Positions 22,901 through 58,439 of a DNA stretch of 64,000 nt are shown here, one piece after another. The translations under genes and the position numbers were made by a program. The notes beneath the pieces are model-generated. The model was not told where the DNA came from and made no database searches. It was given only the letters and a program-made list of their open reading frames with translations. Origin of the DNA: Chrysomallon squamiferum. Lineage: Eukaryota > Mollusca > Gastropoda > Neomphalida > Peltospiridae. Position 1 is the stretch's first letter. Each line of letters begins with the position of its first letter. The stretch spans positions 5,582,436-5,646,435 of the forward strand of contig CM022674.1 in assembly GCA_012295275.1 (NCBI GenBank), read 5' to 3'.

Positions 22901-24167
22901 CAGAATATATAAGGTATGAATTCTATATAATTACTATATTTATGAGCAATAACCAATCAATATAATTAAGAGTTAATTGTAACAGCATTAAGTATGGTGT
23001 TGTTATCCATGCAGTACATTTGCTAGTTATGATATTTCAATTATTACCATTAACACCTGAACAACAATAATATGCTGTCTATTGCAGATGTCTAATTATG
23101 TCCCATTCTCATCTGAGCTGTTTGTGGAAGGTTAATTATAACATGAAACAAAGTGGGCAAAAGGTTGGTCTAACAGTGGAATCAGTTTTAACAGTAACTA
23201 AAATATTATCAGTGAGAATCTTTATAAGATGTGTAAATGAACATATTCATGTATTATAAAATAACACATTTACAACACTTACACTTAGAATTGCAATAAC
23301 AATTACATACATAAACATGTATACACACACACTCAATTAAATTTTACCATATCTGTGTAATCATTAACATTATTACACATTTTATTATCATTATTTATGT
23401 AGTACCATAACTTTTTATAACATCTTGTTTAAGGGACAAAAATAAATAAGTAAAAAATAAAAATATTAAAATATATAAATTTATATTTATTTACACAATA
23501 CTAAGCTCTCCTAATGTTATGTAAATAAATGACAATGAAATAAAGTATTTTCTGTTTAAAATAAAATAAAATAAAATAAAAACATGATTTCAAATAACAA
23601 TTACTGCACATACCCTTCTGTAATAATCTTTGCTTCTGTTGTCATAATAATCCAACACAGATCTACTATCCGATACATAAGAACGATCCATACCAGTGGT
23701 TTACTTGTGGAAATATTACCAAATTGAAATGGAAATGTCACCAATGTTTGGAAATACTACCAGCTTGATTTAAATAATATCAATGCAGAGGAGACAGAGT
23801 ACTAGTTTGTGCTAGCTCAATATCCAGAATGCAAAGAACAACTGATGTGTTTTTTTATAATAGCTATGGTTGGTATGGTAGTGTTTGGTTTTTTCACTAA
23901 GACCTATTTAACAACCAAACAATAACCTGTTAAAACCACAAAAGAGTTTAATTGCCTGTTCATTAACCTGGCAACCAAGTGAACAGATTAGAGTAATTAG
24001 TTCTAATTAGTCTTCCCTTTCTCATTTCCTAATTAATCTCTGGGCATAGGAGTTAGGCAAGGTTCAGTTATTAGTTACCTCAGAAATAAATTTTAAGTAG
24101 AGTAACTTGGTAAATCACTTCAAAGGAATTTCTTAACTGGTTGTTCATTTGAATGGGAAAACAGTAT

Positions 24168-24206
<39 letters not shown>

Positions 24207-25690: not shown

Positions 25691-25781
<91 letters not shown>

Positions 25782-28700
25782 AAAAAGAAAATATACCACT
25801 TACAAGCAAAACTTAATTAAATTCATTCTAAACTAAGCATGTCAGCACATAGCTTGAAAAAGCATTTAAACCAAATTTTAAAACTACATTTTTTTTTTTT
25901 AAATGAATCTGTGTTGAGCAGAAGAATGAACAAGAAGGAAAAACACCTGACCAAAGAGCGGACAGACAGACAGACAGACAGATGAACTCTGGAACAAAAC
26001 AAAACAGCACTCTCTCTTACCGCCTTGTAACTTTCAAACTGAGATTTTAACTCTCCATATTCACTCTCCCAGTCCTCAACCTTTTTCTTGTACTGAATAA
26101 CCTGCATCAGAAATATAAAGGGTTAAAATATGTAATCATGGTTACCTTGTACGTGCTGCTCTTCACTTCATAGTCCTTGTTGCGCAGACTGTCTTCCAGT
26201 TCCTGGCATTTTTTCTTGTACTGGAGCAGCTGTAAAGAAAACTTTCATGATGACTTTTTAACTCGAAACTAAAAAAGTCCTGTAATATCATAATACTGAT
26301 AAAGAAGATTCATCTTTCTTGTTTTGAGCTAGTTATGTCATATTTACTGACAAACTGTGAAAAAGACAACAGTGGTCATCCATCCTCAAGGATTAATAGG
26401 CATCAGTGCAGGTATAGGACCTTTTCTTGCATTGACTGCATATCTTTTTAGTGCAGCTACTGGACTATTTCCCATGACAGTTATATTTAACAAAGTCATG
26501 GAATATGCTTTAATGTCAATGGGAAAGTACATACAGAAGATCCCTTTCTGCTAAATAAAAAAAGAGTAACCTAATGTATGACAGTGCGTTGCAATTTTCA
26601 TTATCTGTTTGGTCCTTAATCTTAATTATGTATGACATTATGTGTAAAATGAGACAGTAATTATATATATATATATATATTCTTCACAAATAGTGAAGAG
26701 AAATAGCAAGAGAAATTAATCAAAATGGGCTAGTCTCTGTAACAAACAACATAATTGTTTTGTACCTTTTTATGTGTGTTTCATGAAGAATAAAAGAAAA
26801 AGGGAATAAAATCAAAATGATAGCCTTCAGAAATTTATTACTTTTGTATCACATTTTGAAATTTCTTCAGAGAAGTATTTTATTTTAATACATTGTAAAT
26901 TTCATTTTATGAAGATTAATTTTAGGATAAGGGTTTTATCTTACTTTGTTATTTGTTTTATTTTTTTAGTCAACATACATTTCTATACAATAAATGACAC
27001 AAGAAACCTTATGGGTTACCTACTTTATTGTAATACTTTGGAGTAGTTCTTAGAGAATAGTTTTATTTTACTTTATTCCTTTACATTTTCTTTACTTTAT
27101 TATTAATTTTACTTCTTTTTTTTTTTGTTAAATTAAATTCAATTTCTTGGTAAGATGTTGTTTTTTGGGTGTTTTTTTTTTTTTATTCATTTGATTTTAA
27201 GTTTCCTTTTTTCTTAAATTTTTTTTATTATTTTTAATTTACTGAAGTTTCTTTTTTAAAAACAACCTGAATATAATGTGGAGAAGCCTTCCTAATACAC
27301 CAGCATGACTACACCACTTTCTAATTTGTTCTAATAACCAAAATTAACCTTATTAACTTTTCACTGGTCTTTTACAATCCCAGGTTATGGTCTTATTCAA
27401 CAACAGTTCAAATTATAAACTATTCAACCTTTTTATTATATGGTCAAGAATATCAGATACTGTGATATCCATTAAAATATGCAATTCCTGCTATATGCCT
27501 AGTGTTTTTTCTTATTATTATTTATATTTTGTTGTTATTGTTTTTAATGGATCATTTGTCAACTTGAGTAAGTATCAGCATCAAAAATATATAGCTTTTT
27601 CAAATTATTATTCCATGTAAGAGTATAATTAATAAATTTAGGAATCGATATCCTGATCAAACAATGAAATCAGACCTCAGAACAAGGTAAGCAGAACCAA
27701 AAGCCTATTATCTGTAATATATAGAAACATTTATCTTAAAATAACAACATGTTAATATGACTTTAACTTTACCAAAAATCTTTAATTAACAGTGTATCAA
27801 AGTATCAGTATTAAAATAACAAGATATCAAATATCCCTCTATTCGGTTTGTTACAAAAACAACAACTTAAATTAACAGAATATCTAAGTATTTGTGTTAA
27901 ATATCAATATACTGCTATACAATTTTCTCAAAAAAAAGTTGAAATAACAAAGCATCAGTATTAAAACAAGATTTCAGGATATACCTCTATCCAACTTTCT
28001 CAAAAAACTTTAAAGAACACTATATACTAAAGCATCAGTATTAAAGCCCCAGTTTAACTACACCCTTCTAAAAGAAGAAATGCTGCATTACCTTTTGCTG
28101 TAATTTCTGTACTAGCTGAGCTTGTCTCTGTTGGCCATCTTGGTAAGCCTGCAGCTTTCTCTTGTAGCTGCTGTGTTCATCTTCCAGCTTCCTTCTCAGC
28201 TCTATGTTCTGCTGTACCAACGTCTTAGAGGTGACATCAACATCAGCAGATTCACCCTTCAGTGATTGTTCCAACTGCAAAAAATAAAGAATACTAATAA
28301 TAAAAAAACAATAATTTTTTTTAAAAAGGTCTTGTCGGTATTGGTGTATTCATCTTTTAGTGACTGTTCCAGCTGTCAAAATAATAATAATATTTTAAAA
28401 GTTTTTTCAAACATTAATGAAAATTTAGGATTACTGCAAGGCAAATTTGTATATGTAAAATGTTATTGAGTGGATATCAAAATCATAGCTATGTACTGTC
28501 TGAAAGATTTTTCATCTTGCTAAGTAGGTTAATCATTATTATCATCATTATCATTATCATAATTATGATCATCAACAAAAGCATTAATATCATTACCACT
28601 TCCTAGCTATTATGAATACAACTGGCCTTCCTTTTGGTTTACCAATTAAAATTAAGCCAAGCAGACAAGCACGTAAAGAAAAATACACTCACTGTCAAAT

Positions 28701-29210: not shown

Positions 29211-29308
<98 letters not shown>

Positions 29309-30144: not shown

Positions 30145-30186
<42 letters not shown>

Positions 30187-33100
30187 TTTTCTTTTATTCT
30201 TATTTTTTTTAAAAAAAAAAAAAAAAAATTTGGACATTATACAAAATTACTATAATTCATAAACAGACTAAATAATTTAATTAAACCAAACTTACTATAA
30301 TCCATAAATAGACTAAATGATCTAATTAAAACAAACTTTTCCAATAACCCTCATTCTCCCTTTCAAGAAAAGAAAGAAAAAAACTCACAGAAAACATTGT
30401 CAGCTGTTCACATCAATGCAAAAGTCAAGATAACATCAGCAAGCACACAGACAAACAGACAGACTGACAGAAAAGAGCAAACATACATAAGTATTGTTAT
30501 CAGTATATATACTGACTACCCGGTCACTATACAAAGCAGTATGCCTTCCCGGCATTTACATGGACAAGACATAGCCTGCACAAAGAATGACATATCATAT
30601 TGCCTGGGATACGACCACTATGGCTAATCCTGCTTGCCACTGTTTAGACAGATTAGGTGTGAGGTCCTGGTCAGATAGCTGTGTCTAATAGTATTTTGAC
30701 ATATGAAGTTATATGTAATGGTATTTTAATATATAAATGTTTACAGGTGTTGTCTGACCAAAATATTTGACACAGTTCAGATATCTATTATTTTTGAAGT
30801 GGCAAAACATAGTTAAATGATTTTACACACAAAAACACACATATTTATTCAAACATACAAATCTTAGTCATTTAGGACAAGCTCTATGTTAATGATTTGA
30901 GAAGGAGACTAAATTTTTTTTCCCATTTCTGGCCTGATTATCATTAATGGTTTATCCACAGAAAGATTCACATAAAGCATCCCTTGAATTATATCATAAA
31001 TGTAACCTGTACAATAAATGTAACAAGTTATTCTTATTAACATCATGTTACAGAGAAAAATAATATCTAAAATCCAAATAACCATTAACAGTAATAATTT
31101 GTGATGTGTTGTTATTGGAAAAATATTAAAGGTTAAAAAAGACACACACCCCCACCCAACAATTACGACTATTTGTCGACACCATGGCTGTACAGACACA
31201 GAGAAAAAAGACACTTGTTTCCCACTGATCTCTCATTTGTCGTGCACTCACAACAGATCAATAATGAACAAATCAATTGATTCGATAATGATAACTGATG
31301 GGTTAGGTGCCAAACATAAAAGTGGACTAATTAGATACGTGTACATGAAGACAATGAGTCGGTGGAAACAATACGGACAACGTGATCTGTGACCGGCAAG
31401 ATTTCCAGAGAACACATTTACAATAGTGGCTAGGAAATCACCAAGGCGGCAAGACAATGCCTATATGTAAATAAATGATATATGAAATTAATTGTCTTTA
31501 AAACGACAATGCAGACACATTTGCGACAAGCACTTGTTGGTTTTAGAAATTCTATAATATTGCTGGCAGCTCAAGTGAGTTTATACAATGACCTTTGTGA
31601 CAATACACCTAAATGGTTAGAAATGAGCGTCTGTCACAAAAGAACCAGTCTGTGGAAATTCTTGTGTGGTAACACAATTAAATTGCCAAATTGGTTCATG
31701 TCAGTTTAGCCTCTAAAATGTCCTCTTTATGGAAATATAGAAGTTAAAATAATGGCAAGATAAAACAAAACAATACTGGTGATGTTATTTACTTATTATT
31801 ATCTGATTTTTACTTTTGTTTGTTTAATATGGACCATCATGTTAGAGAAGTGCTTATAAAAATGTTTCTGTTTGCAAATTTTTTTTAGGGCAGAGTTTTA
31901 ATTTATTCTGTTGTTATAAATATGATTATTTATTCAGCTCCTATGTTTATTTAAAAATGAATGGAAACCTCTATGTTTGATATTATTTAACAACAAATAA
32001 TATCATATAACATTAATATACAGAATGTTATTACATAGCTGTCACAATATCGTATGAATGGATAAAAGTGAATGACATTAATACTTCAAAACAAAACATA
32101 ATTAATATGTAAATGTGTTAAAAAATAAATTGAAGAACAAAAAGACATATCCACAAAAATTCTTTGGACAGAAAATGCCTCTGATTTGTAACACTAATCA
32201 TTATGACTAAAACTACCTAAATTAATGTTCACTGGGTGTTTCATACATATGAAATAAAGTATAAAGTAGTGAACTCAAACAAAAGAAGGAATACTACAAC
32301 TCACAAGAATGAACTTCAACCCATTTTCATTGCAAAATTATTGTTGTCACAGTTACATCACTCACCTGAATCACTCGGCTCATTACAAATCCAGGTGCAA
32401 AGTGCTGAAATTCTGGATTTATTTTTTCATCACTGACAACACTGTCACCTTCCAACTGTTCTAAAAGTTTTTCTGACTCTTCCTTTGTTTCTGGTGAGTC
32501 TTGCAGTTCATTTTCTGACACTTCCTTTATTTCTGGTGAGTCTTGCAGTTTATTTTCTGACACTTCCTTTATTTCTAGTAAGTCTTGCAGTTCATTTTCT
32601 GACACTTCCTTTGTTTCTAGTAAGTCTTGCAGTTCATTTTCTGACACTTCCTTTATTTCTAGTGAGTCTTGCAGTTCATTTTCTGACACTTCCTTTATTT
32701 CTAGTGAGTCATGCAGTTCATTTTCTGACTCTTCCTTTATTTCTAGTGAGTCTTCCAGTTCATTTTCTGACTCTTCCTTTATTTCTAGTGAGTCTTCCAG
32801 TTCATTTTCTGACTCTTCCTTTATTTCTAGTGAGTCTTGCTGTTCATTTTCTGACTCTTCCTTTATTTCTAGTGAGTCTTGCTGTTCATTTTCTGACACT
32901 TCCTTTATTTCTAGTGAGTCTTGCTGTTCATTTTCTGACTCAACTAACTCAGCCCCGTCATCTTTCTCAATACTTTCTATTGGCTCAAAGTTTTCCTTCC
33001 CACTAGACTCAGACTTCTTTTCTGAGTCACTTTTCTTTTTTTCTGAAGTCTGTGTGTCTGCCGACAGACTGAGAAGCTCAGACAAAAAAGTATCTTTCGA

Positions 33101-36100
33101 ATCCTCAGAGCTAGCCATGTTTGGAAGAAAGAAAAGGTGCTTTTCTTCTTCTTTTTTTCTTTCTTTTTCTCTCTGTTTATGTTTTCAACCTGTTTTCGGA
33201 AATTTATAGATATGTATGTGTGTGTATATGTGAAACTAATATATGATCAAAAAGAAAACAAAAGAGCAATTGTACTACACCATTCTGAAGCTGACTGGCA
33301 TTAAACATTAAACGTTGACAGAGTTGTAGTTGGCAACAATACCAAAGACTTGATATAAATCTCAGACAGTGTCCCACAGCCAGTTTTATTTTATCACATG
33401 TTGCATGAACATGAACACATACTAAAGGTCACACGCATGACAAATTTTGATAAAAATCAACACCTCACAAGTAGTACCTTAATTTACAACATAACTGCAC
33501 CATTTGAAACAATATATTCAAACTCATCGCTAACAGTTTTACTGTGATTTTATTTAAAATTTATTTATTTATTCATTTTATTTTATTTACTTATTTATTT
33601 ATTAATTTTATTTTATTTTATTTTATTTTATTTACTTATTTATTTATTCATTTTATTTGTTTTATTTTTATTACTTATTTATTTATTCATTGCTTATCAT
33701 TTCATCTATAAGAAAACACTGTTTAGTAAATTTTTAATAATATATTTTGAAGTGTGAAATTCTACCTCTTGAAAGAAAAGGCCTCTGCAGATTGATATTC
33801 TGTTTCTGTCTCCTTTTAAAATTAAAATAATATGATTCAAATTTAGTATTAAGTTTATTTTCTTATCCTGATGACACTAGAACTGATTATGTTTGGCTAG
33901 TTACATTTCATTTGCTTTTTAAACATCAAATTTAACCAGCTTAGTTTCACATCATTTTTCGTAGATTTTTGTATCATTTCTAGGGTTCTTAGAATGTATT
34001 AAACAATAATTTTTTTTTATAACTTAAAACTTCTCATTTCTTGTTATCATCATAAACATTATCAAGAATCATTAATTTAGTTTCATTTGTTCTTTTCTTT
34101 TCTGCAGTATGGTTTTCTTATTTCTTAAGATTATAATTTATTTAATAAAGTATGGTAGATTGCTATGAATTATTAATATGAAAAAACAAAGATTTTTTTT
34201 TTTTTTATTTTTTTTTTGTTTGGCAAATATCAGATAAAACAGGTTAAAGACTGTTTTCTATCTTTGATCTTAAGCCTAGACCTGCAAAACAATCAATCAA
34301 GTTCAGTTCAGGTGAACAGCTTTTCAGGATATCTATTCAACCATGGAAGAACCTTTTGGAACTATATTTAAAGTTCTGCATGTACAATGAACATTATGGT
34401 TAACAAGCGATTTTAAAATTTTCAATATTTCATACCTATCCTTTTTCATATCAGTATATACTTGAAAATATGAATTAATAATAAATAGAATCCAAGGATA
34501 AAGTCAAAATAGTTTAACTACTAAGGATGAATGGTTCAAAACATTCAGAGAGAAATGTATATGTGTGTGTTTATTCAGAATTCACAGACACACATATAAA
34601 CTATTAATTACTAAATTGCTTGTACAGTCCAAAAAGAAAATTGCAAACTAATTAAATTTAACTTAATTCTATTAAATATATTAATATATTATGAAAAATA
34701 TCTGTATGTCCAGTAAACTGTTTTTTAAACAAATTGCAATTTATTTTTTGATATTTTTGAATTTTTAATTATGTACAATGTACCTTTTTAACTTTACCAT
34801 AATAAACAACTGAAATTGAACCAGTAACACTATATCACATAAATATTTATGATTATCAGCATGATCAATTGATTATCAAATACATTTATTAAGCAAACAT
34901 AAACAAGATACAAGATAATACAATTTTCAAAAGACAAAATGATATTTACAGTGAAAAATAAATTTAGCAATGTTAAAAAAATCAATGATATATCCCATAG
35001 ATACCATTAACTTTTAATATTCACAAGCAGAAAATACAAAATATTGAATATACCAAATAGGTTGTCCGTGTCTTTCTACCAATGTGTCTGTGTGATGTAT
35101 TATGTATGTATGTATGAACATGCAGAAACAGCATATACATACATACATATGTATATCAGACATACATATATAGTTATCTATATATATATATATATATATA
35201 TATAAATATACACATACATAAATACATACACACACACAAACACACCTTCAATGTTCATATCATTTTATTACCTATATAACATTCCAACATCTCTAACTGC
35301 AAATGTGATAAAAGAAATTATAATAGCCAGAAATTCCTTCCATATTTCATCCAAAGAAAACAACTTAATATCTCCAACTCACCAAAGATTAATCTGAAAA
35401 TCAACTTCACTGATCTGACCAAACTTCTTTTAATGACATTTTACCATTCTTCCAATGCCTATCCTTCCTCTTACTCTATCTCTTTTTAATCTTGTGAAAC
35501 AATATAATTCACATCACAAAACACAACACTAACTTCCATGTAATACTCCCACACACACATGCAAACACACACACAGGGTATATCTTCTTCAAACTGCAAT
35601 CTTCCTCTATCATGAGCAATCTGATTTTATAGTGCTGATAAGAAAACCAATTGCCTGATTTTGAATGTCACACAGTACCATTACAAGCTGTCACGTCCAA
35701 CACTCACAAATCCATTACCAATGATTTGCTACCTTATTGTAAAGCTTGTAACTCACACCCTGGTTTGCTCCATAGATCCTTAAAACAAACATGGACTATT
35801 TGTATTTATAATCAGTCAGGACTTTAATATCTTCCTACTATTCCATTCTGACAAGAAATTTTGACAACAACAAAAAAAAATAGCATACCTGTAATCAGTC
35901 CACACACATACACACACACACACACACATATATATTATAAACAAATGAACAAAAACTGTTGAATCCAAAACTATCAAAAGTATTTCCAAGAAAAGTTAAA
36001 CTACTGATTACTATACCACTATTCTGCTATCAATTAACTGTGCTAGTCAAGAAATAGGACTGTCAGACATAATTGTGGATGCAAATTAAATATCAACTGT

Positions 36101-39100: not shown

Positions 39101-42100
39101 AATATAGTTATAAAATGCAGAATTTATTTGTAGAAGAGATGAAATATAATTCAAGAAAAAATAAAATTATTGAAATTAATACTTTGACTGTAAACTGTTA
39201 TTTTAAAACCTTTTTTCTTTCAATCTTTTTAATATTAAACAAAATTAAAGTTTGTTGTATTTTATTCTGTCACTATTGATTATATTAAAGTTGGCCAAAG
39301 GCTTTGAAGAGAAAACTTTCTGTATTTTATAACATAAAAATTGATACTATTTTACTCTGTGCATGTTTTATTTTATAAGAAAAGATTTTTGTAACAAAAT
39401 ACAAATCTTTTTGCACTGCCATTATCAATCATTTATTTCAAAAGGAAGCTTTCTGAATTTCATGAAATAAGTCTATACTATTTCACATGTTCATATTTTA
39501 TGACAGAAAAAAGCACCCAAAAACATCTTTTTATAACTCTTTTTTACAGCTGAACAAAATACAAGCATATTTTATTCTCATTGTCACTACTTTATTTTAA
39601 AAATGGCAAAGGGTAATGAAAATAAATCTTTCCAACTTTCACAGAATACATCAGTACTATCATATTTCACATTGGAAAAAAAATATATATATATATATTT
39701 ATTCTTTTTCATTCTGCTAAATTTTGTTTAATCTTCATAAATTTAAGAAATTAAAAAACTGAATTCAGAAAGTCCTCTCAATTCAGAAAAATAAAAACAG
39801 GTACTCACCCTATCACTAAGTGCATTATATTTGATACTGAGCTCATCTCTCTCTGCACGACTTGCAGCCAGCAGATCTTCAACGCGGTTTAGTTCTGCCG
39901 AAAGCAGACGATTCTCTTCAGAAATCTGCTGTGGTGTTGGCGTTGTCGTCATAATTCCACTGTTGTAGCCAAGATCTTCGCTGGTCAGATTCTTTGTGAT
40001 GATTTCTCGTATTCGAGCTGGGATTTTAGCTGAGGGACTGCCGTCGTCCGCTTTCAGTGTGTAGTTCTCACTGTCTTTCAAAACTGAATCTTCTAGTTTC
40101 TGCAATAAATAAATAAATATTTCAAGTTTCCGAAATAAATGAATAAACCCTTCTAACTGAATTAAATAATAAAACTATTTTTGTTTTTCAAGATACAACA
40201 CGAAATCAATAAATAAATCTTAAACCATATAATTATGAAATATACATTAAACATAAAATAAAATATTTAAATAAAGTCTCTATAGTATATGAACAGCAAT
40301 ACAGAAAGATGATAAAACAACAGATAATTTGGATAAAGTGATTGAGATAAATTGCAAATATACATAACAATTTAATTTTCGGTCTATTTGTATTGTTGCT
40401 TTTTGTGGTGAATGTTTTTGTTAATTTTTTTATTGTGTTTTTCTTGTATCTTTTTTTTTTTTTTCCCTCTACTAGGGGCATATTCTAAAAAAGTCAATGA
40501 ATAAATAAATATATCTAACAAACAGATGAGAAAATTGTTTTCATCGAACGTTTTACTAAAACTGTTATTGGTTTATCAAGCATAAACATGTCTTGCATAA
40601 TTAATTGAAAACACCACTCAAACCATTGAAAGCAATCAACAGACTGCTATTAATAAAAGAACAAACAAAATATTCCCAAATGTGCCTGGCCAAACACATG
40701 CAAACAAACAAATCAAAATGTCCCACAAGCAAGTTGTAGAAAAAAGATCTTTGAATACCTTCCTGTACCAGATAAAAATCTAAATTTAATGTTTTTAGTT
40801 TTTCTCAAAATAATTTACAATTTTAAAACTTCAAACTTATATTAAATTAACTTTGGATTAACAAAAATAGATCAATTGCAGTTCTGATACTACAAACTTT
40901 GCTGTTTATATATACCACATATATATCAAGTTGTTGAATCAAAAAACAAAAAAAAACATCATTTTTAGTTTATTTTTCCAATCAATACATAGGTATCGAA
41001 ATTATTTAAAGTGAATTTTAACATTAACTAAAGCAACAAAGACCAGGATGATACTTAATGACGTGTATATACAGACTTGTGCTCAGTTTCAAAACAAAAT
41101 TAAATAAATATTAAACATTCTCTTAAGTCAGAAATAGCCTCATTCTGTGATGCAGTGATTGTGACAAACAGAATGTTTAAAAAATAAAACATAATTGTTT
41201 TCAAAAAAAGAAGACAGATTACACTGAACTGCTCAGTATTTTATTTATATCTAATATATCAAATGATAATTATATACTACTAGAAAGTCAGTTTGAGCAA
41301 CATATAAGAAATATATAACTGAAACCCATTTTCAGACCTGATTAAATAAACAACAATTTCTAAATGTGATGCAATATTTTGTTTATATCTACCTATCAAA
41401 TGATAATTATATGCTGTCAGGAAAGTTAATCTGAGCACTGAAGAAATATATCACTGAACTACTCCACTTACAGATCTGATTAAATTAACAATAATTTCTA
41501 AATGTATTTTGTTTGTATTTAACATGATAACAGATTATACAATGACATAACTGTCTGCATAGAATCATATTGGTTAACTTAAACAATTACAGATCTCATT
41601 AAACGAACAATAATTTCTAAATTTGACTCAGTATTTTGTTTTTGTTTAACACAACAAATGATTAAATAAAGACAAATCAGTCAGATTTAATGTATTAGAA
41701 GAATACCATTGAATACCATGATACTTCACACTGAATTTGTAAGATAAAAGATTTAATTGAATGTATGTTATGTGTTGTTCCCAAGCAAAGTTTAGTGTTT
41801 AAAGTGCACAAATAACTGGTGTAATTAAATTTTTGTTTTTTTGTTTTTTGCTTTTTGCAAAATGCCACTGCTCATAAACTATGACATTATTTTCCCTTCA
41901 CAATTTGACTCATAATGCCATCATATACATGGTGCATTTTCCTTAAGCAAGAGGAAACTTTTGATCAAGTCAATCTGCCCTGTTTGCCATCAAGACACAA
42001 CTGTGAAAAGACTGATATAAATGAACAATACTTTTCCTGTGTCAGAGGCTATTTAAAAATCCAAAAGAAACTATTTGAATTTCAAACATTTAACAATAAA

Positions 42101-45100
42101 GTCATAAACAGGGCTACTGTGAAATAATGGACTACTCCAACAGTCAACAAATCTAATTAAGTGTATATAATCTGTAAATTCTTGTTTAAGGTTTAATGTA
42201 TGATACACTAGCACAAACTGACTATTTCAATAACAGACATATGAAAAACATTTAAACTGTTAATTGGTCTTATTAAACATACAACAACATGTTAAATAAA
42301 ATACTGGATTTTAGGAAATTAAAAAAAGTACTTCTAGTTTCAGAATTAAATTAATAAACCTTGCTAATTTATAGAAATAACAAACAAATTGTTTTATTTC
42401 AAGAATTATGAAATCAGTTAAACATTTTAATGTTCGATATGTATATTAACAACAATTATATTTTTCCAAGAAAGTCTGCTTGACATACATAAACTCCTGT
42501 GTAGGATTAACATTATGTAATGCCTGTCATTCAAAATTGTGTGCATTATAATCAGTACAAACAGCAAATGAATGCAATCAGGCTCTGGGGTTTATACCAT
42601 TATGTTCCTTTCAGTAATGTCAACAAACATTTGTATATCATACTTCCATTAAGCACAGTGTGTTTAAAGCAAAACAAACCAAAACAATTGTTATGCTGTT
42701 CTGAATGAATTACTAAAGCATTATAGATGAACATATTATCTGACATGTGTGTGCTGCATTTAAAGTAAAATAAACCAAAACAACTGATATCCTCTTAGAT
42801 TATGAATTAAAACCCCAGTTCAGCTACCAAGAAATTGTTATGGATTAAAATAAACAATTCATCTTATAACCAAACTCAGAAAACAAAATAGCTGACACGT
42901 ATTGTTAAATCACATTTTTTTAACTGAAGATTGCCTGCAGTGATATACATTTAGAGAGTTTAAATATGTTCTATACTCTGTCAATTGATTCATTCAAAGT
43001 CTGGTATGCATGATTTATAATTTACATTTCTCTACAAAACATATCATTTATGTGAGCTTGAAGAAAGAAAGGAAAATGGCAGTCTTGTAGCTTATCCATG
43101 GGCATATTATATTAACTGTCATATCTAACTTTTAAACTTAATCACAAAAGACTGGTATCCAAAAAAACGAACAAAAAAAGAAATTCATCAAAAAAAATTT
43201 AAAGAACTGGCATAGTAATTCATACAATTATAGGTTCCATGCATTAGAAAAAATGAAAGTGTGTTAATTAATACAGTATGACTAAGCAGTTAAACATTTA
43301 AGTATTCTTTAACACTTGACTCTTGAGAGATAAATAAATGTAAATACTATTAATTTAAAATAAAAATAAACTGAAAAAGAAAATAATACATGCCTTCAAA
43401 ATTGTTTTTCAAAAATACCCTACCTCCATGAATTTTATGTTTCCACAAGTCTTCCAAAAAGAAATGACTGCATCAACAACTTACTACTCTGTATTATAGT
43501 ATATATACACTTTTCATTATGTAATAGACTCTGATGTGCTATAATATTACTGTATTATATTGTAGACAACACATATATGACATTACTACCTATATTATCT
43601 TTCTCTAAGAAGTTTAAGAAAAGTACTGTCACAGTGACACTTCATTAGAGGGAATGAATACTGCCATAAATATTCTTTTCACTGTGTGATAAACTGCACA
43701 TTGTAATCAGGAAAACTGTAACACACAAGAGCTAATCATAAAAAGTAGTTCTTGGAATGGCAGGGAAAAGTTACTGCTCTCTCTCATTTATATCATTATG
43801 TAAATATTAATATTAAGAATAAAAATGTGTTAAACTGACACTGAATAAATCATTTAGTCTTATATTTCTTAAACTATTTATTGAATTTCTGTATCAGCTT
43901 ATATTTTCTCTACTTGATTTATTTATGTTTTCAACTCTTTTGTCCATTTCTGATAACAAATGGTAGGAGAAAAGTAAAAAATAAAATGAAAATCCTCTAT
44001 TGTATCATTTAGTTTCTTCTTTTTTTTCATTTAATTGTTGTTGGGGTTTTTGTGTTCTTATTTTTATTTCTTTAACTTTATAAAATTGAATAATTAATTT
44101 CTGCATAGAATTGAAGAAATCAGTTATTCTAGACAATAAGCTGAGTTGTGTCCACTGTCTATAAACCATTTTAATTTATCTTATGTATCAAGCAAAGAAT
44201 TACTCTCAGAACATAAAATGCTCCATAAAAACCCATTCAGCTCATCTGGTGTTAAATGAAAAATAAATAAATAATTTAAATACAAAACATTTGATATCTA
44301 AGATAAAGAATCTTTTTACAAACTTTGAATTTGGCCACAAGGGAAATAATGTAATTGTCTTTTAATTTCTTGATAAATATTTAAATATATACCTTTCTGA
44401 AATGAATAGAGACTAATAGTTGGTATTAAACTGTTATGATTATGAAATATTACTCATTTAATTAAATTTAAAATTAAAATTAAAATTAAAATTATTTAAC
44501 TCATAAATTTTAAAAACACAGCTTATCAACAATTAATCTGATTTTAGTATTAAGTGTTGTGATGTATGACTATTTATAATTTCATAATGAATCTTTTATA
44601 TATATATATATATATATTGTTTCAACATCCAATTCATGCAATTTAAATTTATTACGATATGTACGGTAAGTAGTCCGCCGTCACATTTTAGTTACTTGAT
44701 TAAAATCGATTCGTTTTAAAATTAAACTATATATAAAATTAAGTTAGTATTAATCAGAATGAAAATGATAAGGCACAATATTTGAATTCATTATTCAGTG
44801 TATGAAAAGCAACGCCAAATTTGACCTATTCTACTGAAACTTGAAAGACTGAAAGCACTGAAACCGAATCGCAGACTTCTGCGACAATCAAACGGAAATT
44901 CCTACCATATCAAAAGTATTTTCTAAATTTCTTCTTGCTCTCCCAGTTAACGAATTATTGGCAGAATAATCCTGTTCTGGGGGTGAAAAACTTCTAAATG
45001 CAGAATAATTCATTTTGCTAAAACTAAAAGTACTATCGCTTTCAACATGTACGTCAAAACGATCGTCTGGGTTCTTGATATTCTATTTTTAGATCAGCGG

Positions 45101-46036
45101 AAGTAAAGGGCATCCCAGGAAGTCACACTACGGATAGATTTCCTTTACATTTTCCGTAGTTACGCAATGACACCAAGAATAAAGAAACTGCACGGACATT
45201 TTTATCAATACTCTCTTAAATAAAAAAAGTAGCAGCCTTTCTGTTTAATATTACAAGCTAATTAAAACAAAATACAAAAATAACCGACTGACTGGAATCA
45301 ACTATATTTGCAATTTAAACTAACTGTTTTAAATATTAATGTAGTCCTATTAATATTATAAAATAAAACTAATTTGAAAAAAAAAAAAAAAGAAAGAAAG
45401 AAAGAATGTTAAAGAAAAAATATACATATGTATAACGGTAGAGTAATTAAAAAAAAGTGATATAAATTTAATTTTTGAAATATATTTAAAGTTGTTTAAG
45501 GTATCAAATATCATGTAGCTTTGTACAATCTCTAACGTACAGCCCATGACCTTTAAAACAGCCCATGACCTTCATAACCTCGGAAATGGAGCCCAAGGGA
45601 GGTTGGTACACAAAAGATGATAATATAACAGGTGATATTTATTAAAAATCATAATAAGATTCTTAACTAGTAAAACACCCAGTTAAACCTGCTCCAGTGA
45701 TTACTTCCATTAAGAATGTACTCGTTTGATACAAATAATATTTAGTATTAGCACATTCAAATTCATTACTAAACAATCATTATCTTTCAGTTAACAAATA
45801 TATTAATTTTACTTAAATAATATTTTGTGAATTTCTGTTGATAATTACAAATAATATTTAAATAATAATAATAATAGCAGTAACAATAACAGAATCATTA
45901 TTTTAAAAGAAAACAAAATATTAAAAGCTATCTCTATTTAGTTAAAAATGCGGAAATTAAAAAGAAATTTTACTACAAGCAACATAAGAAATCTACTGAA
46001 AATCTTTCACATTGTAGAACAAATTTCTTTCGATTA

Positions 46037-46114
<78 letters not shown>

Positions 46115-46452
46115 GTATTTCTATGTGGTTTTTCTTTTGTCTTCACGGACGTGTGATTATGTTTATGCTTGAATGTGCTCTTCCATGCAGAAAGGATACT
46201 TCAGATTCGAGAATCTGTACGAATCTAAGTGTATATGTGTAAGTATGTATGTACATGCTGTGCTTGCTTCTTTTAAATTAATTCAGTATGAAAATTTCTA
46301 AGTAACTAAATTCATCAGAAATGTAAACAATAAAAATATTATTTTAACCAGTTAACATGCATTCTAATTTTATGAAAGCAAAGCTTGCTGCAGCTGCAAA
46401 GAACAAGTCTAATGAAATATCAAAAATAATAATACTAATAGTAAAAATAAAA

Positions 46453-46499
<47 letters not shown>

Positions 46500-47159
46500 C
46501 ATACATGCATACACACGAAAGTATACACATAATTACTCATATAACTTTACACTAAGCACTAATACACAGATACTATTTTTATAATCATATTAAGGTACAT
46601 TCAGAAAGAGATACACGGACTTGCAGACACAACCACATCCTGTTTTCTCGCATAAAGATTTATACTCGCATATACTCACAGAATAAATTGTACGCTCACG
46701 CGTACGTAATGCACTCACTCGCACACGACATGATCACTCAGGTACACATACATATATCTGAATTTATGCATAAAATAGAAACACACTGCATTCACACATA
46801 CCCAGACACCTATAGCATACTCAAACGATAATACTCATAAACCCTCACACACACACACACACGCACTGTCACACACACAAACACACACAGTCACGCTCAC
46901 ACTCACCACGCACACAGACAAATAAATACATAAATATATTACATGCCTACACATACAAACACTACAATTTAGGTTCATTAAAAACACACATACATACATA
47001 AATATACAGATACTTATATATATATATATTACATCCTGCTCGTACAAATAATAGGTAAGCTAACAACGTTTACGTACGAACTTGCAAACACAGGTAACTA
47101 AAGTTTAAGCCAACCTGTATGACTCTTTCGAGCCTGTTGTCTCTGCCTTCGTTCGACAT
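5706..47159 (-). CDS. CROCC: Rootletin (ciliary rootlet coiled-coil protein), 5' four-fifths of gene, exons 1a-24
   Basis: Rootletin polymerises into the striated rootlet that anchors basal bodies and links centrioles. The exons listed separately join in frame to 1,608 codons (canonical start, exon 4a form). Landmarks in order: RVIQ-KLEDSVL and PARIREIITKNL (residues about 12-60, matching the vertebrate N-terminus), RVEDLLAASRAERDEL, SYKRKLQAYQDGQQRQAQLV (exon 3), MLREQLDQA (exon 6), RLLSLWRSVVAFRR (exon 7), a Ser-Pro-Arg hinge then KRQLQVSDLR (exon 9), a long heptad coiled coil, EEIAALQRDRD (exon 17), LEARRELQDLRRQVKMLDSE (exon 21), SP-rich hinges (exons 22-23) and VDPEAVRMALRSF (exon 23). 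Vertebrate rootletin has about 2,000 residues, so about 400 C-terminal codons lie left of base 5706. The family call is based on remembered alignment; the exon joins are inferred from phases and splice sites. Confidence 0.95.
6040..6119. repeat. GA dinucleotide microsatellite in the intron between exons 23 and 24
   Basis: About 80 bp of (AG)n with one ACAGACAG interruption. The rest of this 372-bp intron is AT-rich and featureless. Confidence 0.95.
6199..6410 (-). CDS. CROCC: Rootletin exon 23
   Basis: 212 bp, acceptor gtttcag, donor gtatgt. Begins FDNTYATTTEGRGSP, continues with SP-rich repeats (PRTGSPVRSGSPLRSRSVSP), then EISGVDVDPEAVRMALRSFM and QQLAGAERER. The DPEAVRxALRxFxQxL block matches vertebrate rootletin. 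The true frame differs from the longest ORF across the first half of the exon. Confidence 0.94.
6790..7222 (-). CDS. CROCC: Rootletin exon 22 with second SP/RS hinge
   Basis: 433 bp, acceptor ttctctag, donor gtaaaa. Encodes VVETEASREALRKEVASLQR, a coiled coil with AELRLKLSGAEGRVNALEAA, then SSLRRTIGFRQEMPRSRSP and a hinge RSRSPSPRRSRPASPSK. Matches vertebrate AELGLRLSAAEGRAQGLEAE and the SP-rich hinge that follows. Locally GC- and CpG-rich. Confidence 0.95.
7223..8701. other. Intron between exons 22 and 21
   Basis: 1,479 bp, AT-rich. Contains ATC/ATT runs near 7248-7275 and 7521-7550 and a TTA/ATT trinucleotide array at about 8425-8620. No coding signal seen. Confidence 0.7.
8702..8946 (-). 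CDS. CROCC: Rootletin exon 21
   Basis: 245 bp, acceptor tttccag, donor gtaaaa. Encodes LDDQVDAIQKDCNELRANLR, then EVEKARLEARRELQDLRRQV and KMLDSERSKLGKEVSDLQVR. Matches the vertebrate block EVERSRLEARRELQELRRQM almost residue for residue. Confidence 0.96.
8947..9746. repeat. Intron 20/21 filled by degenerate tandem repeats (about 55-65 bp)
   Basis: Successive segments share the pattern (C)CAATGAAAATCTxTxTxCTATTTA-ATCTAATATTAACAA. The clearest four copies lie at about 9545-9746, with older copies further left. The last copy ends at the exon 20 donor. Confidence 0.7.
9747..9932 (-). CDS. CROCC: Rootletin exon 20
   Basis: 186 bp, acceptor aattcag, donor gtgagt. Encodes EEHKELMRKDISDLKRSVND and RAEVDKTELNRALQDAKQRIG. 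Its donor is the edge of a degenerate tandem repeat filling the next intron. Confidence 0.93.
9933..10948. other. Introns around exon 19
   Basis: Two introns of 388 and 452 bp (exon 19 at 10321-10496 lies between). Purine-rich AGAAAG and GACA runs at about 10040-10115; otherwise AT-rich without recognised features. Confidence 0.6.
10321..10496 (-). CDS. CROCC: Rootletin exon 19
   Basis: 176 bp, acceptor tatcag, donor gtgaat. Encodes EAHSKEIKELNSAIRDVSRQ, RDAALRECSELKTQLKLVEE and TRDTIRRDLIEANRKIRE. Aligns with vertebrate LREAEELRTQLRLLEDARDG. Confidence 0.95.
10949..11145 (-). CDS. CROCC: Rootletin exon 18
   Basis: 197 bp, acceptor caacag, donor gtaagt. Encodes ALSLLEQEKSTLQEKHSQLQ, continuing to RIEQDRNSINNLQSELKNFR and MQFEET plus two bases. 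Aligns with vertebrate ALSLKESEKTALSEKL and RQEQDRSTVNALTSELRDLR. Confidence 0.95.
11146..11330. repeat. AAAT and AAAAT microsatellites in the intron between exons 18 and 17
   Basis: (AAAT)n at about 11157-11197 followed by (AAAAT)n-like sequence to 11265. The remainder of this intron and the next (11770-12230) is AT-rich without recognised features. Confidence 0.85.
11590..11769 (-). CDS. CROCC: Rootletin exon 17
   Basis: 60 codons, phase 0-0, acceptor gtaacag, donor gttagt. Encodes DSQRMEFDNLHEQMVHQHNM, then EKEELLSRFRREKEELQEEI and AALQRDRDDSLLMAENDKQQ. Highly conserved with vertebrate LEAEKEELSEEIAALQQERD and EGLLLAESEKQQ. Confidence 0.96.
12231..12400 (-). CDS. CROCC: Rootletin exon 16
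   Basis: 170 bp, acceptor tttacag, donor gtaaga. Encodes EIHRIVKEKEADLDRAEHQK, then EALTSRLQQMERDLQMALAQ and EKQAHEEDVERLSRER. The last part aligns with vertebrate AAHEEDLQRLQREKE. Confidence 0.94.
12928..13249 (-). CDS. CROCC: Rootletin exon 15
   Basis: 322 bp, acceptor tttacag, donor gtgagg. Encodes ISRQKQALSEELLSARKELE, then VTAVERENRQQSETIAALSS, then LEATLYEAQQNVMALEVRKA and EGENQELIVRKENLQ. Matches vertebrate LEGSLFEVQRQLAQLEARREQLE. CpG content is higher than in neighbouring exons. Confidence 0.95.
13250..14365. other. Intron between exons 15 and 14 with poly-T and TTTTTA array
   Basis: Contains T tracts (about 13292-13308, 13362-13375), a 33-bp poly-T at 13898-13930 and a (TTTTTA)n array of about ten units at 14041-14107. 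The poly-T could be the tail of a short retroelement, but no head was recognised. Confidence 0.75.
14366..14472 (-). CDS. CROCC: Rootletin exon 14
   Basis: 107 bp, acceptor tttgtcag after a 16-bp T tract on the coding strand, donor gtaagt. Encodes LNQTLELSEFSRQQLEDEIR and onwards to EISAQLSV. Ends in phase 0 before exon 15. Confidence 0.92.
14782..14905 (-). CDS. CROCC: Rootletin exon 13
   Basis: 124 bp, acceptor ttcttcag, donor gtaaat. Encodes LEAEKNSLSGEKSALEMEKT and onwards to EKMDLDTEKMG. Coiled-coil rod. Confidence 0.92.
15642..15805 (-). CDS. CROCC: Rootletin exon 12
   Basis: 164 bp, acceptor gttttag, donor gttggt. Encodes EALSKAELQKAELEVEINKL and onwards to GQDKIELNKIIIQ. Aligns with vertebrate KAEAGRVELELSMTKL and AQDKLDLNRLVAQLE. 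Confidence 0.94.
16204..16331 (-). CDS. CROCC: Rootletin exon 11
   Basis: 128 bp, acceptor tttgcag, donor gtgagt. Encodes QKVLSHQDHKMSKLREELVE and onwards to EVLEGQKLELG. Coiled coil. Phase fits exons 10 (C-Q-K join) and 12 (G-E-A join). Confidence 0.92.
16934..17185 (-). CDS. CROCC: Rootletin exon 10
   Basis: 252 bp, acceptor tttacag, donor gtgagt. Encodes RREREDSFRDRDRIKNALNV, a coiled coil, and LQAANSELQRQRDMLEDEKE. Corresponds to the vertebrate LQAAQEELRRQRDRLEEEQED region. Confidence 0.95.
17186..17749. other. Intron between exons 10 and 9
   Basis: 564 bp, A-rich tract at 17220-17242, otherwise unique AT-rich sequence. Confidence 0.6.
17750..18337 (-). CDS. CROCC: Rootletin exon 9 with Ser-Pro-Arg hinge
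   Basis: 588 bp, acceptor tgtgcag, donor gtaagt. Starts VNELTMINERLKIQLEEKEK, continues to EALHSALRNIAEAVINDADR, then a basic hinge with many SP and RS dipeptides (RSGSRSGSP, RSTSPRSRSP, RSPNRSPSPRGRSRSP), then the conserved AALNKRQLQVSDLRAKLSAS. Vertebrate rootletin has an SP/RR-rich hinge at the same place before LHKRQLQVQDMR. The SP sites could be phosphorylated by proline-directed kinases (inference). Confidence 0.96.
18746..18867 (-). CDS. CROCC: Rootletin exon 8
   Basis: 122 bp coding VYMDRERSEKMSTDSQLREK and LRELNELQTRYDAHSSELSS plus two bases of Arg. Donor gtaggt. The acceptor (ttaaag) is atypical, without a pyrimidine tract, and is one unit of a 28-bp tandem array (18862-18998). Frame and alignment to the vertebrate LREKDLAQQQMQSDLDK region support the chosen start. 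Confidence 0.85.
18862..18998. repeat. 28-bp minisatellite across the exon 8 splice acceptor
   Basis: About five copies at exact 28-bp spacing (gtaaacc at 18862, 18890, 18918, 18946 and 18974). The unit includes the exon 8 acceptor and the first exon bases, so each copy presents a similar AG|GTTTAC on the minus strand. Using the next upstream copy would add 28 bases and shift the frame. Confidence 0.9.
19248..19460 (-). CDS. CROCC: Rootletin exon 7
   Basis: 71 codons, phase 0-0, acceptor ttttcag, donor gtattt. Encodes NFNEYYSAEHGRLLSLWR, SVVAFRRQFSEMKMATERDL and onwards to TQSQ. This is the most conserved stretch in the rootletin family (vertebrate NEHSRLLLLWRQVVGFRR, EVKMFTERDL). Confidence 0.96.
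19461..20499. repeat. Intron between exons 7 and 6, with a degenerate CTTAATACTGAAGTTCTGAAG repeat near the donor
   Basis: From about 20245 to 20490 a 25-35 bp motif (CTTAATxCTGAAxTTCTGAAxT) recurs about eight times with substitutions and runs up to the exon 6 donor. The left 780 bp is AT-rich without recognised features. Confidence 0.7.
20500..20665 (-). CDS. CROCC: Rootletin exon 6
   Basis: 166 bp, acceptor gctacag, donor gtaaga. Encodes SSSLAHVNGMLREQLDQATA and DWQRAREELESKEMEWREEEK. The MLREQLDQA block is diagnostic for rootletin (vertebrate ASLAQVNAMLREQLDQA). Confidence 0.95.
20999..21114 (-). CDS. CROCC: Rootletin exon 5
   Basis: 116 bp, starts in phase 0 after ttcaacag and ends with two bases of an Arg codon before gtaaaa. 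Encodes FNSTTERLESVESRLKYAES, DHVVDLETALIKLEEEKQR. It aligns with the human DLESALIRLEEEQQR segment. First common exon for isoform 1d. Confidence 0.93.
21115..23613. other. Intron upstream of exon 5 (to exon 1d)
   Basis: About 2.5 kb, AT-rich, with a short CA tract at 21722-21757 and a T tract at 21255-21270. No exon recognised on either strand. Confidence 0.6.
23614..23691 (-). CDS. CROCC: Rootletin alternative first exon 1d
   Basis: An ATGG start with G at -3 opens 26 codons (MDRSYVSDSRSVLDYY, DNRSKDYYRR) ending at a good donor (gtatgt) in phase 0. The next acceptor in the gene, exon 5, also starts in phase 0, giving ...KDYYRR-FNSTTERLE. This would be a rootletin lacking everything encoded by exons 1-4. 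The exon stands out in GC content from 2.5 kb of AT-rich intron on either side. Transcript support is needed. Confidence 0.6.
23692..24020 (-). promoter_or_regulatory. Putative promoter of rootletin isoform 1d
   Basis: Upstream of the exon 1d ATG. At 23962-23975, about 271 bp upstream, is ATTAACCTGGCAAC, which fits the RYYNYYNNRRNAAC X-box pattern at all but one position and contains a perfect GGCAAC half-site. Functional role is inference. Confidence 0.25.
24021..26020. other. Intron between exons 1d and 4b
   Basis: AT-rich. A (TTTA)n tract at about 24164-24206, a small duplication around 24810-24890 (TTTTGTTTGGAAAATATTTATATAAA twice in essence) and a long imperfect TTA/ATC array at about 25600-25782. 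No exon recognised. Confidence 0.65.
25600..25782. repeat. TTA trinucleotide array with TCA interruptions
   Basis: About 180 bp of (ATT)n with scattered ATC units, ending in four ATTATC units. It gives Asn/Asp-rich frames that are not genes. Confidence 0.95.
26021..26101 (-). CDS. CROCC: Rootletin exon 4b (alternative-exon pair, downstream member)
   Basis: 27 codons, phase 0-0, acceptor gatgcag, donor gtaaga. Encodes VIQYKKKVEDWESEYGEL and KSQFESYKA, homologous to exon 4a (shared QYKKK at the same place, YK near the end). Only 44 bp separate it from exon 4a, so splicing the two together is probably hindered. Both exons keep the frame, alone or together. Confidence 0.85.
26146..26229 (-). CDS. 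CROCC: Rootletin exon 4a (alternative-exon pair, upstream member)
   Basis: 28 codons, phase 0-0, acceptor tttacag, donor gtaacc. Encodes LLQYKKKCQELEDSLRN and KDYEVKSSTYK. It matches the vertebrate rootletin ILQYKKRCSELEQQLLER segment better than exon 4b, so it is the likely ancestral copy. It is exactly four heptads long. Confidence 0.9.
26230..28091. other. Intron between exons 4a and 3
   Basis: 1,862 bp. Left part is AT-rich with poly-T runs. A small plus-strand ORF at 26357-26554 has no recognisable family. From about 27770 to 28050 a degenerate repeat of about 90-100 bp (AAAGCATCAGTATTAAAAxAAGAT...CCTCTATxCxxxTT) is present in three to four copies. Confidence 0.6.
28092..28274 (-). CDS. 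CROCC: Rootletin exon 3
   Basis: 61 codons, phase 0 at both ends, acceptor ttttgcag, donor gtaatg. Encodes LEQSLKGES..., QNIELRRKLEDEHSSYKRK and LQAYQDGQQRQAQLVQKLQQ. The QAYQxGQQRQAQLVQ block is nearly invariant in rootletins. Exon 3 can receive exons 2 or 1c, both ending in phase 0. Confidence 0.95.
28338..28372 (-). pseudogene. Partial duplicate of the start of exon 3 with its own acceptor
   Basis: 98 bp upstream of exon 3 the minus strand again reads an AG acceptor (gacag) followed by LEQSLKDE, differing from the true exon start by a few transitions. Similarity stops after about 33 bp and there is no good donor. Use of this acceptor would shift the frame (98 bp). It is probably a relic of a local tandem duplication. 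Confidence 0.6.
28373..32365. other. Intron between exons 3 and 1c
   Basis: About 4 kb. Contains a long CA microsatellite (about 29214-29302), a TA tract (30155-30183), poly-A/T runs and, around 30390-30680, a less AT-rich unique patch of unknown nature. No exon recognised. Confidence 0.6.
29214..29302. repeat. CA dinucleotide microsatellite
   Basis: About 88 bp of nearly perfect (CA)n, preceded by two copies of CCTTCAGACATACACACA. Confidence 0.97.
32366..33118 (-). CDS. CROCC: Rootletin alternative first exon 1c: acidic 14-residue-repeat N-terminus
   Basis: A 251-codon open exon starts at ATGG with A at -3 and no AG acceptor just before it, and ends VMSRVIQ before a strong donor (gtgagt), phase 0. 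It can splice directly to exon 3 (LEQSLKGE). The ending RVIQ is the same as that of canonical exon 1a. Residues 1-60 are Ser/Lys/Glu-rich. Residues 61-214 are eleven copies of a 14-residue unit (consensus SENELQDSLEIKEV/E). Residues 215-251 are unique. The whole is highly acidic. It lies inside the 11.5 kb intron between exons 2 and 3, so use of this promoter would remove the conserved exon 2 domain. A separate gene using the same splice sites is possible but less simple. Confidence 0.75.
32477..32938 (-). repeat. Coding minisatellite, 11 x 42 bp
   Basis: Eleven head-to-tail 42-bp units in frame, each encoding 14 residues. Changes between units are few (EQ/EL/EE/EH at positions 4-6, S/L and L/P at 8-9, E/V at 14). 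The low divergence suggests recent expansion and probable length polymorphism. Confidence 0.95.
33119..33400 (-). promoter_or_regulatory. Putative promoter of rootletin isoform 1c
   Basis: Region just upstream of the exon 1c ATG. It holds a purine-rich stretch and, about 205 bp upstream at 33323-33337, an X-box-like sequence GTTGTA-GTT-GGCAAC with a perfect RFX half-site GGCAAC. RFX factors control ciliary genes in animals. Promoter function is inference. Confidence 0.3.
33401..39808. other. Intron between exons 1c and 2
   Basis: 6.4 kb. TTTA/TTTTA arrays at about 33553-33690; GTAT/CATA and TA tracts at 35100-35240; a diverged CTTCCAAAGAAGAAAA-containing repeat at about 36340-36600; otherwise AT-rich unique sequence. 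The 37517-37762 and 38544-38759 ORFs show no recognised family. Confidence 0.6.
39809..40099 (-). CDS. CROCC: Rootletin exon 2 (conserved N-terminal domain)
   Basis: 97 codons with phase 0 at both ends, acceptor tattgcag and donor gtgagt. It encodes KLEDSVLKDSE, then PARIREIITKNL, a Thr/Pro linker, and the start of the coiled coil (EENRLLSAELNRVEDLLAAS, RAERDELSIKYNALSDR). The PARIREI block and RVEDLLAxSRAERDEL are the most diagnostic parts of the rootletin N-terminus. Isoforms starting at exons 1c or 1d would lack this exon. Confidence 0.95.
40100..44905. other. Intron between exons 2 and 1b
   Basis: 4.8 kb, AT-rich. A diverged tandem array of about 120-140 bp units lies at about 41130-41690. 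The ORFs at 41915-42127 and 42520-42708 show no recognised family. Short TA tract at about 44598-44618. Confidence 0.6.
41130..41690. repeat. Diverged tandem repeat, about 120-140 bp units
   Basis: Four or so copies share CAGATCTxATTAAAxxAACAATAATTTCTAAAT followed by ATTTTGTTTxTxTxTxAxxxxxxxAAATGATxA. Each copy differs by substitutions and small indels. Confidence 0.7.
44906..45013 (-). CDS. CROCC: Rootletin alternative first exon 1b
   Basis: An ATG opens 36 codons (MNYSAFRSFSPPEQDY..., ending RNLENTFDM), followed by a GT donor (gtagga) in phase 0, so it can splice to exon 2 in frame. It would replace the 15-residue canonical N-terminus with a Ser/Asn-rich 36-residue one and keep the PARIREI block. 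The segment is richer in GC than the flanking intron. A 12-codon upstream ORF overlaps the start codon. Exon 1b lies 2.1 kb downstream of exon 1a. It could instead be a non-functional chance ORF, but ATG, open frame, donor and phase all agree. Confidence 0.6.
45010..45048 (-). promoter_or_regulatory. Upstream ORF overlapping the exon 1b start (ATGA)
   Basis: A 12-codon ORF (MLKAIVLLVLAK) ends in TGA that shares bases with the exon 1b ATG (ATGA arrangement). Ribosomes that translate it would have to reinitiate to make isoform 1b. This is read directly from the sequence; a translational effect is inference. Confidence 0.45.
46040..46109. repeat. CT dinucleotide microsatellite
   Basis: About 70 bp of (CT)n. 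Confidence 0.97.
46457..46498. repeat. TA dinucleotide microsatellite
   Basis: About 42 bp of (TA)n. Confidence 0.95.
47115..47159 (-). CDS. CROCC: Rootletin exon 1a (canonical first coding exon)
   Basis: Short first exon MSNEGRDNRLERVIQ, ending in CAG before a GT donor (gttggc), phase 0. Joined to exon 2 it reads ERVIQ-KLEDSVL, which matches the vertebrate rootletin start (ETVIQ-TLESSVL), so this is taken as the ancestral N-terminus. The bases before ATG are pyrimidine-rich on the coding strand, with a TTC repeat about 70-95 bp upstream. The base at -3 is C, so the start context is weak. Confidence 0.85.
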
Positions 47160-48006: not shown

Positions 48007-48007
48007 C

Positions 48008-48050
<43 letters not shown>

Positions 48051-49304: not shown

Positions 49305-49339
49305 AACAAAATAGAAAAATATTACGTAGAAATAATCGT

Positions 49340-58438: not shown

Positions 58439-58439
58439 G

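Follow-up and report, generated by a model that had tools for sequence, protein, structure and literature searches.

Results

Layout of the rootletin locus

On its minus strand the window, a 64,000-nucleotide stretch of Chrysomallon squamiferum DNA, carries the larger part of a gene for rootletin (CROCC), a protein by which cilia are anchored in the cell. The gene is cut off at the left edge, since the Mytilus protein continues beyond exon 24. Twenty-four exons in one frame (2, 3, 4a, 4b, and 5 to 24) span 40.1 to 5.7 kb, and the spliced product in its 1a plus 4a form has 1608 residues and no stops. The Pfam Rootletin profile (PF15035) matched residues 150 to 343 of this product with E=2.7e-69 and 233.4 bits (cut-off 36), while the 4b, 1c, and 1d forms scored 221.2, 232.3, and 172.6 bits, respectively. 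The nearest of the 87 matches listed was Mytilus galloprovincialis LOC143057256 isoform X1 (68% identity over 99% of the query), and ray and rotifer proteins were 46 to 48% identical across 96 to 99% of the 1608-residue query. Judged by these alignments, the long rod is collinear with known rootletins. In all, 117 relatives were compared, with protein listings of 46 rows (1c-form query) and 87 rows, a few of them without an organism name; cephalopod, gastropod, or annelid names were absent from both. The PARIREI motif within exon 2 has a counterpart in 30 of the 117 relatives. Rfam and tRNA scans of the window gave no matches, and no solved structure matched the N-terminal 366 residues at E≤0.01. 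At a distance of 98 bp upstream of exon 3 there is a partial copy of its start (LEQSLKDEY..., 28372-28323, minus strand) that carries a separate acceptor; this copy resembles an exon relic, since splicing at this acceptor would break the frame.

Table 1 Features of the rootletin locus, in positions of the window
Feature	Position	Strand	Description
Exon 1z	61393..62586	-	398 codons, acidic, DEDEAK then GTAAGT, phase 0; proposed to join exon 2 over a 21.3-kb intron
PEX2-like gene, first three exons	56801..58502	+	56801-56848, 57470-57547, 58440-58502; inside the 1z-to-2 intron
CpG-rich domain	44655..56923		two-state HMM segment, CpG fraction 0.171, from the PEX2-like start to 1b
Exon 1a	47115..47159	-	MSNEGRDNRLERVIQ, 15 codons, then exon 2 (KLEDSVL)
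Exon 1b	44906..45013	-	36 codons, phase 0, predicted first exon joining exon 2
Exon 2	39809..40099	-	291 nt, 97 codons, starts KLEDSVL, contains PARIREI
Exon 1c	32366..33118	-	251 codons, acidic, ends MSRVIQ then GTGAGT; proposed to join exon 3, omitting exon 2
Exon 3	28092..28274	-	183 nt, 61 codons, starts LEQSLKG; proposed 1c partner
Exon 4a	26146..26229	-	84 nt, 28 codons, LLQYKKKC..., phase 0
4a-4b intron	26102..26145	-	44 nt; branch-like TTTAAC 22 nt from either end
Exon 4b	26021..26101	-	81 nt, 27 codons, VIQYKKKV..., phase 0
Exon 1d	23614..23691	-	26 codons, phase 0, doubtful candidate joining exon 5
Exon 5	20999..21114	-	phase-0 start; proposed 1d partner
Exons 6 to 24	5706..20665	-	19 exons, in-frame stops absent

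Each of the five candidate first exons (1z and 1a to 1d) combines a start codon and an open frame with a donor that fits a shared acceptor in frame (Table 1). The sequence-only reading of this DNA had described four of them, and 1a, 1b, 1c, and 1d do each begin with ATG, run free of stops, and end at a phase-0 GT at the positions it gave; the phase-0 starts of exons 2, 3, 4a, 4b, and 5 were likewise confirmed. It was incomplete in that it missed 1z, which lies 14 kb upstream of its interval, and treated 4a and 4b merely as two acceptors. The match of phases that it noted is real, yet less telling than it appeared: the lengths of exons 2, 3, 4a, and 4b are all divisible by 3, so that any phase-0 donor within introns 1 to 4 is compatible.

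Exon 1a and the upstream exon 1z

By sequence comparison, 1a is the conserved animal first exon. The start of exon 2 could be recognised near the N-terminus by pattern in 34 of the 117 relatives, and VIQ, the end of 1a, immediately precedes it in 26 of these 34; in the halibut protein (P0013), MSCQREQGEHSPRLEAVIQ is followed by KLEESLL. The 1a exon also coincides with a CpG peak, with a CG/(CG+TG+CA) value of 43/181 (0.238).

Exon 1z resembles the N-terminus of Mytilus X1, a predicted protein in which 297 residues precede RLEDSVLK. Both carry IGSVSDxE, LxQGYRDDG, and VSDxFTDVS, and in both an acidic stretch and a lysine stand immediately before (K/R)LEDSVLK. The Smith-Waterman score of 1z against the Mytilus sequence was 139, a value reached by none of 1000 composition shuffles of the latter (maximum 89) or 1000 shuffles within 20-residue windows (maximum 136). 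With 100 shuffles each, the z-score was 9.7 for Mytilus, as against 3.2 for the best of 12 other N-termini. A protein database search with the 1z region alone gave no match at E≤1e-3, Mytilus included, among 7990 candidates scored, and the homology therefore leans on the local comparison and on position. Mytilus X1 shares with the 1z form an extension joined directly to exon 2, but its extension is shorter than the 398 residues of 1z and holds nothing resembling 1b, 1c, or 1d. The Mytilus protein (P0001) belongs to a cluster of 18 member sequences from 1 contig, so other predicted Mytilus isoforms probably exist. Taken by its sequence, 1z is a well supported candidate for an alternative first exon. 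Two repeat features were seen here: a 60-bp piece of 1z (61980-62039) recurs just past the donor at 61312-61371 (88% alike), and repeats around a 21-bp unit occupy 62191-62403 within 1z, repeats being present in 1c too.

The intron between 1z and exon 2 holds an opposite-strand gene that matches Pfam PF04757 (Pex2_Pex12) with E=6.4e-5 and 23.2 bits, slightly under the cut-off of 25.1, and which we take to be PEX2 rather than PEX12. A simple motif scan up to 64 kb detected no further exons of this PEX2-like gene, which may interlock with exon 1z. Inverted copies at 57534-57656 and 59153-59028 are 79% alike, and one of them overlaps the end of the second PEX2-like exon.

The acidic repeat exon 1c

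Exon 1c contains eleven 42-bp in-frame repeat units in codons 59 to 212, that is, in 154 of its 251 codons. An open frame through tandem repeats was discarded as proof of coding, since an in-frame repeat is open by construction. The variants among the units were 9 nonsynonymous and 0 synonymous (possible changes: 89 nonsynonymous, 27 synonymous, and 10 stop), so the repeats show no sign of coding constraint. Outside the repeats, codons 1 to 60, all but two of which precede them, had a codon score of 0.58 against a mean of -0.88 for intronic ORFs, while the last 35 codons scored -0.13. The RVIQ end is common to 1a (AGA GTC ATA CAG) and 1c (CGA GTG ATT CAG), with three synonymous codon differences. 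Of the 40 CAGGT sites on each strand, the only ones preceded by RVI are those of 1a and 1c (2 of 40 on the minus strand, 0 of 40 on the plus strand). As a result, the 1c-3 junction, RVIQ-LEQSLK, resembles the 1a-2 junction, RVIQ-KLEDSVLK, and the 1c form, although exon 2 is missing, would keep the Rootletin domain whole. A protein search with the 1c form scored 7982 candidates, and in no row did coverage of the query exceed 86%, the share that lies outside 1c; the acidic repeat probably filled the candidate list. There was no CpG peak at 1c (4/83, p=0.06 versus the gene body). On codon usage, donor, and junction, 1c is a well supported putative alternative first exon.

Exon 1b and the CpG landscape

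The region from the PEX2-like start to 1b formed one CpG-rich HMM segment (Table 1), and the gene bodies on both sides of it are CpG-depleted. The depleted body begins about 250 bp past the 1b donor, and on the opposite side the CpG-rich segment reaches about 120 bp into the PEX2-like gene. In bins chosen after the profile had been inspected, the CG/(CG+TG+CA) value was 21/82 (0.256) at 1b, 11/133 (0.083) in the gap between 1a and 1b, and 9/597 (0.015) below 1b; Fisher tests gave p=7e-4 for 1b versus the gap, p=3e-4 for 1a versus the gap, and p=2e-4 for the gap versus the region below. In oyster, methylation climbs sharply past the start site and promoters are generally without it (PMC4378273). 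Together with this pattern, the beginning of the depleted body suggests that germline transcription may start at about 1b. Ten further CpG-rich segments were called by the HMM, 8 of them on coding exons (1z included). The other two are a small one upstream of 1z (63118-63243) and a 360-bp one at 31166-31524 in the intron below 1c, which contains no recognised exon, has no second copy in a self-comparison of the window, and is possibly an internal regulatory element.

Over the first 26 codons of 1b, 14% of the null ORFs do as well by codon score. An ATG at -35 starts a short frame of 12 codons, and the stop of this frame overlaps the ATG of 1b. With the CpG peak as independent support, 1b is likely an alternative first exon.

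Exon 1d

With a codon score of -0.19, 1d ranks among the best 2.3% of the 173 intronic ORFs, and the 272 nt upstream are free of ATG. There was no CpG within 600 bp upstream (0/75). The product would have a shortened Rootletin domain, covering only positions 57 to 187 of the 188-position profile. We would sooner doubt than accept 1d as a real first exon. Upstream of 1d, near 23.86 kb, a TATA-like string had been seen by eye and was dropped; such strings are presumably common in AT-rich DNA.

Chance expectation of first exons

Donors were scored with a matrix built from the 24 internal donors of this gene, which themselves ranged from 0.3 to 11.5 bits when each was left out in turn. The donor of 1z was the best scored (12.3 bits), followed by 1c (11.9), 1d (9.2), 1b (6.9), and 1a (4.9). 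Among 150 sequences of 26 kb simulated with a third-order Markov model, an ORF and donor matching 1b arose by chance with P=0.37 (0.43 expected), and one matching 1d with P=0.06 (0.06 expected). A mechanical scan from 5 to 64 kb for an ATG, at least 26 open codons, and a donor of at least 6.9 bits, for which 1a is too short, returned 12 cases on the minus strand versus 1 on the plus strand. Six of the 12 overlap or fall within undisputed coding exons, which leaves six: 1z, 1b, 1c, and 1d together with the noise-like 46999-46907 and 31236-31150. Against a null of 173 intronic ORFs (mean -0.88, sd 0.50 for 26-codon pieces), the mean codon score was 0.47 for 1c, 0.10 for 1z, and -0.51 for 1b, and 26-codon windows of core exons averaged 0.92 with a minimum of 0.11. 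Exons 1a and 1c stand above chance; for 1b and 1d, ORF and donor do not show this. In a sampling without named gastropod, cephalopod, or annelid rows, 1b, 1c, and 1d were each carried by 0 of the 117 relatives.

The exon pair 4a and 4b

The 4a-4b intron measures 44 nt, while the other 22 introns between exons 2 and 24 range from 309 to 11534 nt. Both exons start with xxQYKKK, and in an ungapped comparison 7 of 27 residues and 36 of 81 bases were alike, so the pair is either old or strongly diverged. The corresponding Mytilus X1 exon had 11 identities and a BLOSUM sum of 62 with 4b, versus 9 and 35 with 4a; the cysteine of 4a is found in Mytilus X1, although 4b is nearer overall. A cysteine occupies position 8 in 73 of 86 aligned relatives, and the other 13 include several Schistosoma and a few poor alignments. 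An intron of 44 nt is presumably too short to splice, so that joint inclusion should fail by crowding, and 4a and 4b are probably mutually exclusive. For a comparable pair, OGDH 4a/4b, exclusive use is attributed to the closeness of branch points to the 5' splice site (PMC7969005); in the rootletin gene, by contrast, the entire intron is merely 44 nt and exclusivity is predicted.

Discussion

A proposed choice of rootletin N-termini

The DNA itself establishes the exons with their phases and splice signals, the resemblance of 1z to the Mytilus N-terminus, and a CpG footprint at both 1a and 1b. The reading that we favour as the probable one is that alternative promoters choose the rootletin N-terminus, with 1z, 1a, and 1c well supported, 1b likely, and 1d doubtful. 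The earlier proposal that several phase-0 first exons feed one rootletin gene thus holds for 1a and 1c, and for 1z, which it had missed; it is plausible for 1b and weak for 1d. Each start would be transcribed separately, and its donor would by default be spliced to the next acceptor downstream, pairing 1z, 1a, and 1b with exon 2, 1c with exon 3, and 1d with exon 5. Because each of introns 1 to 4 is in phase 0, every product would retain exons 5 to 24, where most of the known protein is encoded. A second choice, 4a or 4b, would be enforced by the 44-nt intron; since the two differ by one residue in length, this choice would shift a continuous heptad register. The predicted products would be a canonical protein with a short head, from 1a and perhaps also from 1b, a form in which a long acidic tail precedes exon 2 (1z), one in which an acidic repeat tail replaces exon 2 (1c), and perhaps an N-truncated protein (1d). 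The acidic residues (D+E) number 72 versus 31 basic residues (K+R) in 1z, and 85 versus 23 in 1c.

The rootletin N-terminus has been proposed to lie at the A-band, with KLC3 and Nesprin1 as proposed N-terminal partners (PMC11623930). The sequence-only reading had set an N-terminal domain before the rod; the study cited argues for a coiled coil and not for a globular domain. On our model the common rod would assemble while the N-terminus varies, and the acidic tails would change the attachment surface at the A-band. Transcription from each start, its tissue specificity, the mutual exclusion of 4a and 4b, and any influence of the N-terminus on A-band attachment are inferred.

Competing explanations

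It is conceivable that only 1a and 1z are real, 1b and 1d being chance ORFs with chance donors and 1c an unspliced ORF or a small nested gene enlarged by minisatellite growth. The simulated frequency of 1b-like ORFs, the noise-like candidates of 1b grade (two on the minus strand, one on the plus strand), the lack of synonymous variants among the 1c repeats, and the absence of all three exons from the relatives speak for this explanation, as does the frame of 1c, which reaches a stop 12 codons past the donor. It does not account for the RVIQ that 1c shares with 1a through other codons, for the strong donor and coding-like first 60 codons of 1c, or for the CpG peak that 1b has of its own, and we regard it as unlikely. 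That 1c is not a first exon but an internal one of the cassette type, preceded by an acceptor, seems to us hardly credible: the frame stays open over the 22 codons before the ATG, but an in-frame stop follows at -69, no good acceptor was seen by eye between this stop and the ATG, and the ATG, in the context CAAACATGG, has no other ATG in the 165 nt upstream.

Exon 1z might also belong to a separate upstream gene or to an occasional read-through fusion. It lies 21 kb from exon 2, beyond the opposite-strand PEX2-like gene, its database search found no homologue at E≤1e-3, and the DNA from 44.7 to 56.9 kb is CpG-rich and not depleted, unlike a methylated body transcribed in the germline. However, a promoter active outside the germline would leave this intron CpG-rich as well, the 1z donor is in phase 0, the same pattern of acidic residues and lysine adjoins exon 2, and in Mytilus X1 a similar N-terminus and the exon-2 homologue occur in one predicted protein. 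We consider a separate origin of 1z very unlikely and retain the choice of N-termini by alternative promoters as the preferred reading.

Relation to known systems and implications

Alternative first exons are a common type of regulation, and for rootletin they would be new. The gene shares with known rootletin/CROCC (PF15035) the domain match, the 1a exon ending in VIQ, exon 2, and the long collinear remainder, but differs in having an alternative exon 4 and at least two additional first exons that are supported and encode long acidic tails. Among the titles and opening lines of abstracts listed for rootletin, no alternative promoters, first exons, isoforms, or exclusive exons were found, and no word that starts with "splic" stands in the main text of a 2021 rootlet review (PMC8435291). 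For Drosophila Rootletin (CG6129), a 406-bp first-intron piece makes a reporter active solely in late differentiating chordotonal neurons (PMC4489026), which indicates control inside the 5' part of the gene; this is an expression reporter, and the word isoform does not occur in the main text of that paper.

Such a system would matter because it bears on how a single filament protein can give rise to rootlets as different as those of motile cilia, sensory cells, and centrosomes. If promoter choice swaps the N-terminus, which is proposed to lie at the band that contacts membranes, isoform-specific tags could test attachment, and the likeness of 1z to the mussel protein makes the question answerable in mussels. 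A more speculative extension, which as a whole we judge somewhat improbable, is a combinatorial N-terminal code in which 1z, 1a, 1b, or 1c, the starts that preserve the Rootletin domain, combines with 4a or 4b and, with 1d added, yields up to nine rootletins that would co-assemble by their common rod. If this code existed, cell types would set membrane or cargo attachment (through the tail) and register (28 versus 27 residues) independently, and the 1z arm would be at least as old as the split from the mussel lineage.

X-box-like sites

A scan for the RFX X-box motif found 28 X-box-like sites in the window versus 16.3 (sd 4.5) expected. With at most 2 mismatches and within 700 bp upstream, 1b had no site, 1a, 1c, 1d, and the PEX2-like start had one each, and 1z had two. 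The site at 1d was first spotted by eye, so the placement of these sites is no more than suggestive.
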